64,000 nt of DNA, from positions 23,218 to 87,217 of the forward strand of contig JAKSJO010000008.1 of NCBI GenBank assembly GCA_024398125.1. Reading direction: 5' to 3'. The notes under the pieces were generated by a model that saw only the letters and a program-made list of their open reading frames with translations, did no database searches and was not told where the DNA came from. The stretch comes from Bacteroidales bacterium (GTDB lineage: Bacteria > Bacteroidota > Bacteroidia > Bacteroidales > UBA932). Shown piece by piece: positions 12,507 through 54,825 of the stretch. How positions within the stretch are numbered: the stretch's first letter is position 1; every line of letters starts with the position of its first letter. The position numbers were made by a program, and so were the translations under genes.

Positions 12507-12537
12507 TTTGTAATTCATCATTATTTGGGTATCTTTG
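12507..12537 (+). promoter_or_regulatory. rimP-nusA-infB promoter
   Basis: TTTG (12507-12510), 19-nt spacer, TATCTTTG (12530-12537): a textbook Bacteroidota promoter. Expected transcription start is near 12543, about 50 nt before the chosen rimP ATG. Confidence 0.75.
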
Positions 12538-30410: not shown

Positions 30411-30483
30411 TGCCATTTTGTCAGTGATGACCGAATGGCAAATCTTTTGATATTTCTCATGTGCCCCGGTCAAGGAAACCGGG
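30411..30483 (+). promoter_or_regulatory. dnaK heat-shock-type promoter and leader hairpin
   Basis: TGTCAG (30419-30424), 19 nt, CTTTTGAT (30444-30451) replaces the usual TTTG/TAnnTTTG pair; htpG carries exactly the same pair and spacing. TGCCATT (30411-30417) and AATGGCA (30434-30440) form an inverted repeat around the first box. The roughly 60-nt leader has a hairpin CCCGGT-CAAGGAA-ACCGGG (30465-30483), ending 34 nt before the ATG. Confidence 0.65.
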
Positions 30484-30517: not shown

Positions 30518-32407
30518 ATGGGAAAGATCATTGGAATCGATTTGGGTACTACCAATTCATGTGTATCCGTAATGGAAGGCAACCAGCCTACCGTCATCAT
30601 CAACAATGAAGGTCAGAGAACCACTCCTTCAGTCGTTGCTTTCGCAGAAGGCGGCGAGCGCAAGGTAGGAAGCCCTGCAAAGCGTCAGTCAATCACCAAC
30701 CCTCACAACACCATCTACTCTATCAAGCGTTTCATGGGTGAGAGCTTCGATCAGGTACAGGCCGAGATCGCACGCGTTCCTTACAAGGTAGTGAAGGGTG
30801 ACAACAATACTCCACGAGTAGACATCGACGGCCGTCTCTACACTCCACAGGAGATCTCCGCAATCATTCTACAGAAGATGAAGAAGATCGCCGAGGACTA
30901 TCTCCGCCAGGATGTTACCGAGGCTGTCATCACCGTACCTGCATACTTCAGCGACAGCCAGCGCCAGGCTACCAAGGAGGCCGGCCGCATCGCAGGTCTC
31001 GACGTAAAGCGTATCATCAACGAACCTACCGCAGCCGCTCTCGCATACGGTCTCGACAAGAAGGACCAGAACTGCAAGGTTGCAGTATTCGACCTCGGTG
31101 GCGGTACCTTCGATATCTCTATCCTCGAGCTTGGTGACGGCGTATTCGAGGTTCGCTCAACCAATGGTGACACCCACCTCGGTGGTGATGACTTCGACCA
31201 GGCAATCATCGACTGGCTTGCACGCGAGTTCGCAATGGAGAACGGCGGAATCGACCTCAAGAAGGACCCAATGGCACTCCAGCGCCTCAAGGAGGCTGCC
31301 GAGAAGGCGAAGATCGAACTCTCAAGCCAGAGCTCTGCGGAGATCAACCTCCCTTACATCATGCCTGTTGACGGCGTTCCAAAGCACCTTGTAAAGACCC
31401 TTACCCGCGCAAAGTTCGAGATGCTCTGCGACGACCTCTTCCAGAGATGCATCGAGCCATGCCGCAAGGCCCTCTCAGACGCGCGCCTCAGCTCATCTGA
31501 CATCGACGAGGTCCTCCTCGTAGGCGGTTCTACCCGTATCCCTAAGGTACAGGAGATCGTAAAGCAGTTCTTCGGCAAGGAGCCTAACCGCAGCGTAAAC
31601 CCAGACGAGGTTGTTGCAATCGGCGCTTCTATCCAGGGCGGTGTCCTCGCAGGCGACGTGAAGGATGTCCTCCTCCTCGATGTGACTCCGCTTTCACTCG
31701 GTATCGAGACCCTCGGCGGCGTTATGACCAAGCTCATCGACTCAAACACCACCATCCCTGCAAAGAAGTCACAGGTATTCTCTACCGCAGCTGACAACCA
31801 GCCATCTGTACAGGTACGCGTCCTCCAGGGCGAGCGCCCTATGGCAAAGGACAACAAGCTCATCGGAGAGTTCAACCTCGACGGCATCGCACCTGCACCA
31901 CGCGGAATACCTCAGATTGAAGTAACCTTCAACATCGACGCAAACGGTATCCTCAACGTGTCAGCAACAGACAAGGCTACCGGCAAGGCACAGAACATCC
32001 GCATCGAGGCTTCATCAGGTCTCAGCGACGATGAGATCCAGAGAATGCGTGACGAGGCAAAGGCCAACGAGGCTGCCGACAAGGAGGCAAAGGAGCGCGT
32101 AGAGAAGATCAACAACGCTGACGCCATGGTATTCCAGACAGAGAAGAATCTCAAGGAGTACGGTGACAAGATTCCAGCAGAGAAGAAGTCGGCTATCGAG
32201 GCTGCAAACCAGAACCTCAAGAAGGCTGTTGACGAGAAGAATCTCGCAGACATCGACAAGTACAACGCCGAGCTCGAGGCTGCATGGCATGCTGCATCCG
32301 AGGACATGGCAAAGGCTGCACAGGCTGGTCAGGCAGGTCCTCAGGGTCCATTCCAGGGCGGCCCACAGGGACCATCAAACGGTCCTGAGGCACCAGACGA
32401 GCAGTAA
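30518..32407 (+). CDS. dnaK: Chaperone DnaK (Hsp70)
   Basis: The 629-aa protein opens with [20 protein letters not shown], has the phosphate loop [12 protein letters not shown], and has the interdomain linker [18 protein letters not shown]. The substrate-binding domain and a helical lid end in a Pro/Gly-rich tail (GPEAPDEQ). It is an ATP-dependent folding chaperone. No dnaJ or grpE is adjacent. Its upstream region carries the TGTCAG-N19-CTTTTGAT element shared with htpG, and a strong terminator follows 15 nt after the stop. Confidence 0.98.
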
Positions 32408-52863: not shown

Positions 52864-54717
52864 TTATTTTATAATGTCATAGCTGCGGGCGATAAAATCG
52901 CTCAGTTCCTTACCCTTCAGCATGCCGTTCGCGAGCAGTGCGAGGTCGGCAACCTGACGGAGAACAGGGCTGTCTGCGTCCTTGGCCTCCACGATCTTCT
53001 TGATCAGTGGGTTCTCCATGTTGACGATCAGGTTGTATGATGCCGGAAGCTCTCCGTAGAAGTTCATGCCTCCGCCGAGAACGCTCATCTCGCGGTAGCG
53101 GCGCATGAATTCGCTCTGGGTGATGACGATCGGTGCACCGTTCTCGCCGAGATTCTGTGGCTCTACCATATAGTCGTTGCCTTCTGGGAACGCTCCCTTG
53201 ATGAGCTCGCTGAGCTCCTTCTTCTCGTCGTCGCTGAGCTCAGGCTTCTTAGCGTCCTCCTTAGGGATGAGGTTGGAGATGCTGTCGCTGTCGACGCGTG
53301 CGAATCTTACATTCTCCATCTTCTGCTCGAGCATGTTGATGAAGTGGGAGTCGAGCTCGCAGTCCATGAGAAGCACGTCGTAGCCCATGTTCTTCGCAGC
53401 CTCGATCTGGCTGTACTGAGCGTCCTTGTCTGTCGCATAGAGACAAACCACCTTCTTGTCCTTGTCGGTCTGCTGAGGCTCTACGGCGGTCTTGTACTCG
53501 TCCAGGCTGAAATACTTCGCGTCTGTGTTCTTGAGGAGCGCGAACTTCATTCCTCTTTCGCCGAACTTCTCGTCGCTGAGCATGCCGTACTCGATGAAGA
53601 GCTTGATGTTGTCCCACTTCGACTCGTAGTCCTGGCGGTTCTCCTTGAAGATGTCGTCAAGCCTGTCTGCAACCTTGCGGGTGATGTAGCCTGAGATCTT
53701 CTTGACATTGGCGTCGCTCTGGAGGTAGCTGCGGCTGACATTGAGCGGGATGTCCGGCGAGTCGATGACGCCGTGAAGCAGGGTGAGGAAGTCCGGGACG
53801 ATGTTGTCTACATGGTCGGTGACGAACATCTGGTTGCAGTAGAGCTGGATCTTGTTCTTGTTGATCGACATGCGCTCCTTGATCTTAGGGAAGTAGAGCA
53901 CGCCGGTCAGGTTGAACGGGTAATCGACGTTGAGGTGGATGTGGAACATAGGGTCCTCGTCCATAGGGTAGAGGGCTCTGTAGAAGTTCTGGTAGTCCTC
54001 TTCGGTGAGGCTTGACGGGCTCTTCGCCCAGATAGGCTCGGTCTTGTTGATGACGTTGTCCCTGTCGGTCTCGACGTCCTTGCCGTCCTTCCACTCGTGC
54101 TCCTTGCCGAAGATGACAGGAACAGGCATGAACTTGCAGTATTTGTTCAGGAGACCCTGGATGCGGGACTTTGACGCGAACTCGTCTGACTCCTTGTCGA
54201 GATAAAGGGTGATGACGGTTCCGCGGCCTTCCTTGTCGCAGTCCTCAAGGGTGTATTCAGGTGAACCGTCGCAGCTCCACTTTACAGCCTGGGAACCTTC
54301 CTTCCATGAAAGTGTCTCGATGGTGACCTTCTCGGAAACCATGAATGCCGAGTAGAAGCCGAGACCGAAGTGGCCGATGATGCCGTTGATCTGGTCCTTG
54401 TATTTCTCGAGGAACTCGCCGGCTGATGAGAATGCGATCTGATTGATGTACTTGTCAACCTCCTCGCGGGTCATGCCGATACCCTCGTCGATGATCTTGA
54501 GAGTCTTTGCGGCCTCGTCAAGCTCGACCTTGACGCCGATGCCTTCGGTGTCGCCGGCATACTCGCCGCTGGCAGCGAGGGCCTTCATCTTCTGACTTGC
54601 GTCGACGGCGTTTGCCACGAGCTCGCGAAGGAAGATCTCGTGGTCAGAATAAAGGAACTGCTTGATGACCGGGAAAATGTTCTCGGTTGTTACTCCGATT
54701 TTGCCTTTGTTTTCCAT
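52864..54717 (-). CDS. htpG: Chaperone HtpG (Hsp90)
   Basis: The 617-aa protein has the GHKL ATPase motifs: EIFLRELVANAVDASQK (Asn/Asp metal site), DEGIGMTREEV, GHFGLGFYSAFMV, and GRGTVITLYL. Middle and C-terminal dimerisation domains follow. It is an ATP-dependent chaperone. The promoter region carries the TGTCAG-N19-CTTTTGAT element shared with dnaK, within a perfect palindrome, and a 61-nt leader with a GGCTG/CAGCC hairpin. Confidence 0.97.
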   Translation of the reverse strand: MENKGKIGVTTENIFPVIKQFLYSDHEIFLRELVANAVDASQKMKALAASGEYAGDTEGIGVKVELDEAAKTLKIIDEGIGMTREEVDKYINQIAFSSAGEFLEKYKDQINGIIGHFGLGFYSAFMVSEKVTIETLSWKEGSQAVKWSCDGSPEYTLEDCDKEGRGTVITLYLDKESDEFASKSRIQGLLNKYCKFMPVPVIFGKEHEWKDGKDVETDRDNVINKTEPIWAKSPSSLTEEDYQNFYRALYPMDEDPMFHIHLNVDYPFNLTGVLYFPKIKERMSINKNKIQLYCNQMFVTDHVDNIVPDFLTLLHGVIDSPDIPLNVSRSYLQSDANVKKISGYITRKVADRLDDIFKENRQDYESKWDNIKLFIEYGMLSDEKFGERGMKFALLKNTDAKYFSLDEYKTAVEPQQTDKDKKVVCLYATDKDAQYSQIEAAKNMGYDVLLMDCELDSHFINMLEQKMENVRFARVDSDSISNLIPKEDAKKPELSDDEKKELSELIKGAFPEGNDYMVEPQNLGENGAPIVITQSEFMRRYREMSVLGGGMNFYGELPASYNLIVNMENPLIKKIVEAKDADSPVLRQVADLALLANGMLKGKELSDFIARSYDIIK

Positions 54718-54749: not shown

Positions 54750-54825
54750 GGCTGTTTGCTTTCAGCCACGTCTGCATTATGAATCAAAAGCTGTTCCAAC
54801 CCGCCCCGACTGACATAATGTCAGT
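54750..54825 (-). promoter_or_regulatory. htpG heat-shock-type promoter, palindrome and leader hairpin
   Basis: Minus strand: TGTCAG (54815-54810), 19 nt, CTTTTGAT (54790-54783). TGTCAG is one arm of the perfect palindrome ACTGACAT-A-ATGTCAGT (plus-strand 54809-54825). The leader has a hairpin GGCTG/CAGCC (54767-54750) ending 32 nt before the ATG, closely matching the dnaK layout. Confidence 0.65.

Follow-up and report, generated by a model that had tools for sequence, protein, structure and literature searches.

Transcription with sigma-54 requires RpoN together with an ATP-hydrolysing activator, and the sites of such activators usually lie at about -80 to -150. PspF, one of these activators, is held inactive by PspA. 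HrcA, the partner of CIRCE, is a repressor. In Flavobacterium psychrophilum, mapped 5′ ends defined sigma-54 promoters (SM4) with -24/-12 elements before groES-groEL, lon, dnaK, grpE-dnaJ, htpG, clpB and skp; according to the available part of the paper, growth on blood agar and some stresses induce them, their activator is left open, and a sigma-54 regulator gene and lptE (0733, 0732) lie near groES (0729) (PMC9723704). A term search of the same available text gave no mention of palindromes, inverted repeats or upstream activators. A second paper, also available in part, gives TGGCAC-N5..7-TTGCT as the sigma-54 consensus, finds that the predicted sigma-54 promoters of Bacteroidota are enriched for chaperone COGs, with HSP90 in Bacteroidia, and describes grpE and groES of B. 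thetaiotaomicron as dependent on sigma-54, citing a Blattabacterium genome paper (PMC12316311).

Since both papers already contain it in the parts available, the link between sigma-54 and chaperones is not new. The promoters described below have the same chaperone gene set and -24/-12 elements as the SM4 promoters; added to the available content of PMC9723704 are a site, its phasing, the assignment of an activator and the order Bacteroidales. The predicted regulons of PMC12316311, as far as that text is available, have the chaperone link in common with the present data, whereas the activator site and the activator assignment are found only here. The site, the phasing, the activator assignment and the exchange with HrcA/CIRCE were not found in print in the main texts of open-licence papers and are apparently the new parts. 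Overall, dnaK and htpG of the present genome probably share a module made of a sigma-54 promoter and a TGNCA-N3-TGNCA site, bound by an orphan activator, as the counterpart of CIRCE.

The shared module at dnaK, htpG and other chaperone operons

The window (the whole stretch of DNA analysed, 64,000 nucleotides from a Bacteroidales bacterium) carries dnaK and htpG on opposite strands (Table 1). The original prediction described an identical two-box promoter before both genes, TGTCAG-N19-CTTTTGAT, and its letters, positions and 19-nt gap were borne out by re-reading the window at 30419-30451 (+) for dnaK and 54815-54783 (-) for htpG; the distance to the ATG, given there as about 66-67 nt, was counted as 66 nt and 65 nt, respectively. 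The window contains no further exact match, and about 0.0005 would be expected by chance for the 14 fixed bases at equal base frequencies. A shuffle comparison allowing up to three mismatches (5 matches, shuffle mean 5.95) says nothing on the exact pair. The pattern TGTCAG-N17..22-CTTTTGA was found in the 2.34-Mb assembly only at the same two places, the reversed control pattern giving zero. As for the TTTG/TAnnTTTG pair, which the original prediction takes to be in use elsewhere in the window at this geometry, exact TTTG-N19-TAnnTTTG, scanned at the N19 spacing, occurs once, at 12507-12537 (shuffle mean 0.09).

The division into boxes had to be changed. With the two promoters laid side by side, TGTCAG is not an upstream promoter box but the right half of a 13-bp TGNCA-N3-TGNCA site, and the true upstream (-24) box, TGG(C/A)A at 30436 and 54798, had been overlooked. 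The distance from the site to the TGG box is 12 nt in both promoters. Moreover, both have GG at -24 and G at -13, the latter being the G of TTGA, with the 10 bp between them that sigma-54 promoters have. CTTTTGAT represents one variant of the -12 region and holds the -12 half of the sigma-54-type promoter. RpoN (sigma-54), unnamed in the original prediction, is the sigma factor proposed, and the predicted transcription starts, placed from the -12 position, are at ~30462 for dnaK and ~54772 for htpG. Thus, an alternative-sigma promoter class of chaperone genes and a joint operator/promoter, both offered earlier as interpretations, are retained, while the parse of the boxes is not.

Table 1. Positions of the proposed regulatory elements and genes at dnaK and htpG in the window
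Feature	Position	Strand	Basis
dnaK TGNCA-N3-TGNCA site TGCCATTTTGTCA, proposed activator site	30411..30423	+	sequence pattern
dnaK sigma-54-type -24/-12 promoter, TGGCAA-ATCTT-TTGA	30436..30450	+	GG-N10-G score 8/10
dnaK (Hsp70)	30518..32407	+	ORF; Pfam HSP70 E 3e-262
htpG TGNCA-N3-TGNCA site TGACATTATGTCA, proposed activator site	54811..54823	-	sequence pattern
htpG sigma-54-type -24/-12 promoter, TGGAAC-AGCTT-TTGA	54784..54798	-	GG-N10-G score 8/10
htpG (Hsp90)	52864..54717	-	ORF; Pfam HSP90 E 3.6e-49

The re-parsed module, TGNCA-N3-TGNCA-N12-TGGMA, has four exact places in the assembly when scanned genome-wide at the N12 spacing, all directly before chaperone operons: groES-groEL, grpE-dnaJ, dnaK and htpG. 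The chance expectation is about 0.14 matches at equal base frequencies. The groES-groEL promoter, TGGCAC-AGACG-TTGC, has the full TGGCAC-N5-TTGC form, and that of grpE-dnaJ reads TGGCAG-ACAAT-TTGA. A near form stands before clpB, where the exact site is followed after 12 nt by CGGAAC-ATATT-TTGA, one mismatch away from the pattern; clpB has a site and a promoter in all six genomes of the genus examined. The original string is literally absent at groES, grpE and clpB; the module in its new parse is what these operons carry. The two-box promoter TGTCAG-N19-CTTTTGAT was rejected on this ground, the conserved unit being a different one.

For a listing of the regulon, TGGMAM-N5-TTGAT with one mismatch proved too loose (234 matches against 105 of the reversed control). 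The ClpB of this genome (L154:2751-4808), as its ORF was read, is a short form of 686 aa in which Pfam finds no N-terminal Clp_N. Elsewhere in the assembly, G000:C15:5781-7495 contains more than 20 copies of TGACTGTATGTCAAAGTTACAAATGTTGAA, all on the same strand and 76-78 bases apart, a spacing that suggests a CRISPR array.

Conservation of the promoter and helical phasing of the site

The original prediction looked to close relatives for conservation, and the module is indeed kept at their dnaK and htpG. The dnaK set comprised 80 loci from public records, mostly titled Bacteroidales, and the exact site was found within 40 nt of the promoter in 75 of them, a count for which the promoter was picked jointly with the site. 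Among 30 htpG loci, one (L304) had an unusable start and was left out; in the 29 upstreams of the genome itself and 28 relatives the site is exact in 19, has one mismatch in eight, two in L299 and three in L280, again with the promoter picked jointly with the site. Within the genus it is exact in 18 of 22.

The promoter score reached at least 7 of 10 in 79/80 dnaK, 28/29 htpG and 57/58 groES upstreams of Bacteroidia, four further loci with weak Cpn10 matches (L259, L262, L263 and L264, with best promoter scores of 5, 4, 5 and 7) having been left out. Two dnaK promoters from Porphyromonadaceae records (L079 and L082) score 10/10. Taken together, the GG-N10-G element attains this level in 164 of 167 upstreams of the three genes compared to 53 of 176 controls. 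The three upstreams below it are L030 (dnaK), L280 and L195, the last being one of two groES copies in G077. As 53 control upstreams also reach 7, the score was rejected as sufficient proof of a sigma-54 promoter. The full module is present in only 4 of the 176 controls, two of which are dnaK and htpG themselves.

An RpoN gene with all three Pfam domains is present in the genome on contig C6. RpoN was found in 37 of the 41 genomes of the relatives set and in all 69 phylum genomes given, the latter making the co-occurrence of rpoN with the promoter a weak test. Two Pfam models did not find it in G028 (98% complete) and G039 (96%), despite the presence of activator and promoter, nor in G010 (63%) and G011 (85%). 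Missing contigs may be behind these absences.

It is very improbable that the promoter is read by a primary or ECF sigma factor, with the TGG...G pattern kept as an operator or for some other reason. The -12 base does depart from the consensus C, which makes up 0.12 over 164 promoters against 0.67 for A (A at dnaK and htpG of the window, C at groES of the same genome), and TTTG at -7 belongs to TAnnTTTG, the primary-sigma consensus of the phylum in the available text of PMC9723704. Against this, the GG-N10-G spacing is kept across dnaK, groES and htpG in many lineages, several of which have the full forms TGGCAC/TGGTAC-N5-TTGC, and the mapped 5′ ends of F. psychrophilum put these genes under a sigma-54 motif, as far as that text is available (PMC9723704).

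The position of the site relative to this sigma-54-type promoter was analysed with promoters picked without regard to the site. The 164 promoters were thinned to 132 by removing those of the same gene with more than 70% ungapped identity. An exact site lies within 130 nt in 100 of these (dnaK 50/54, groES 33/52, htpG 17/26), and the 32 without one include 19 of the 52 groES promoters. The spacer of 3 is specific, giving 100 promoters against 1-6 for each of the spacers 0-2 and 4-8; shuffles gave a mean of 0.22 sites. Measured to the promoter, the sites cluster at 14, 23-26, 35-36, 46-47, 56, 66-67, 75-78 and 87-88 nt. Of the periods scanned, from 6 to 20, the best is 10.5 bp (R 0.952), and the centres of these eight classes fit 14.4 + 10.45n (p ~4e-4). 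Taken by themselves, the 14 sites more than 40 nt away, which all belong to groES and come from nine families as labelled, give R 0.90 at 10.5 (p ~1e-5). Because the promoters share ancestry, the argument rests on how many different turns are occupied rather than on the lowest p.

By eye, 10 of the 14 far sites lie inside hairpins with a T run behind them, in the secG-groES interval, and could serve as terminators, either in addition to a role as activator sites or in place of it. Such hairpins with T runs, for example ATGCCAGCCTGTCAAAGCTGGCATTTTT, contain TGNCA-N3-TGNCA in L191, L192, L200, L201, L203, L207 and others; terminator and activator site may be one and the same sequence there.

The sites at 14-36 nt are nearer to the promoter than sigma-54 activator sites usually are. 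They adjoin the -24 box or lie close to it, and a protein bound there could obstruct the polymerase, which would suit a repressor acting as a functional analogue of HrcA on a sigma-54-type promoter, while the activator works from solution or from elsewhere. This arrangement is unlikely: the sites at 46-88 nt keep the same phase, a regularity not required for simple blocking by a repressor, and the activator gene is linked to the target operons (see below). If an activator is what binds, sites that keep their phase from one helical turn off the -24 box outward would probe the closest position from which it can work.

The orphan activator and the exchange with HrcA/CIRCE

Three true sigma-54 activators are encoded in the genome. 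The one on contig C13 consists of an AAA+ sigma-54 domain, a lid and a Fis-type HTH, without a receiver domain in Pfam, and its cluster has the order activator-lptE-TPR-secG-clpB, an order shared by the five relatives examined within the genus. Among the 40 Bacteroidia, 21 have activator-lptE-TPR-secG-groES-groEL on one strand, with 1.6-3.7 kb from the activator to groES, and G028 is the 22nd genome with such linkage, by coordinates. The orphan activator thus stands just upstream of groESL in 22 of the 40 and of clpB in six more, and is linked to neither in 12 within the genome stretches taken. Outside the class, the best activator match was never within 7 kb of groES in any of 40 genomes, again by coordinates. 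The presence of an activator alone is uninformative, since matches at E <1e-50, paralogues included, occur in 80 of 80 genomes. Of 42 activators (39 from the class, three from outside), 38 have the recognition helix SERTLYRK and 41 a GAFTGA-type loop, which was not found in L339. PspF-type activators are built alike, with the AAA+ sigma-54 domain directly N-terminal and a C-terminal Fis HTH, but their neighbours and targets differ.

The activator at G000:C5:36764 (L147) is of the receiver-AAA+ sigma-54 type with a GSFTSA loop. The remaining control upstreams bearing the full module, L193 and L208 from one flavobacterial-type genus, have the exact site in front of the ORF that directly precedes the activator; this ORF, the next long one upstream, is MiaB-like by eye, and the position of the site possibly points to autoregulation.

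With three true activators in the genome and binding by the orphan one only predicted, the site might belong to another of them. We consider this improbable, as the C13 activator alone clusters with groESL/clpB, while the one at C5:36764 has no HTH in Pfam and the loops of the two activators other than C13, GSFTSA and GAFTDA, are non-canonical.

HrcA was searched for in 80 genomes, 40 of the class Bacteroidia (the present one included) and 40 of other classes. It was found in none of the former and in 25 of the latter. CIRCE precedes groES in all 25 HrcA-bearing genomes, with 0-2 mismatches of 18, and in six further genomes outside the class beyond those of the HrcA search; at groES of the class genomes searched there is no CIRCE-like match, the best having at least 6 mismatches of 18. 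Repeat stretches from genomes already covered were skipped in this groES comparison. HrcA/CIRCE control was rejected for this genome and the other 39 class genomes searched, there being neither an HrcA gene nor CIRCE at groES. As the Bacteroidia genomes tested are without HrcA, the switching-on of chaperones in this class needs another answer.

Outside the class, the groES promoter scores 8-10 in 14 of the 15 HrcA-less genomes, TGGTAC-N5-TTGC being its commonest form; in the fifteenth, G058, it reaches 7 at best, 148 nt from the start. Exact TGNCA-N3-TGNCA was not seen at groES of these 15 genomes, where only forms with at least one mismatch occur. In family f38 (for example L158, L162 and L167), outside Bacteroidia and with neither HrcA nor the exact site, TTTGGTACGGWANTTGCA is a near-consensus sigma-54 promoter at groES. 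A sigma-54 score of at least 7 was also recorded in 4 of the 25 HrcA-bearing groES upstreams, at least 110 nt from the start codon. Overall, HrcA/CIRCE and the module are alike in their target genes and in having a symmetric site near the promoter; they differ in that HrcA is a repressor, while the regulator proposed for the module is an activator.

A proposed sigma-54 activator scheme for chaperone induction

Computation provides the place of the module, its conservation, the phasing of the site, the RpoN gene and the orphan activator gene cluster running into groESL or clpB. In the scheme proposed on top of these, RNA polymerase with sigma-54 would wait at the chaperone promoter, the orphan activator would bind its site on the helix face turned toward the polymerase, and under protein-folding stress it would open the promoter, the whole system taking the place that HrcA/CIRCE has in other classes of the phylum. 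How stress would be sensed is a guess, made because the activator has no receiver domain: free chaperones might keep it inactive and release it once unfolded protein titrates them.

A wider proposal, about as apt to be right as wrong, is that the cytosolic heat-shock regulon of Bacteroidia runs via sigma-54 and one orphan activator sensing chaperone load, from sites on one helix face that work at any of turns one to eight, those right beside the -24 box included, and that it replaced HrcA/CIRCE no later than the base of the class. With a named sigma factor, a single candidate activator gene and a site of 13 bp, the scheme is directly testable for these abundant gut and environmental bacteria. 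If true, heat shock through sigma-54 and its activator would follow a logic unlike repressor release or the stability of sigma-32.
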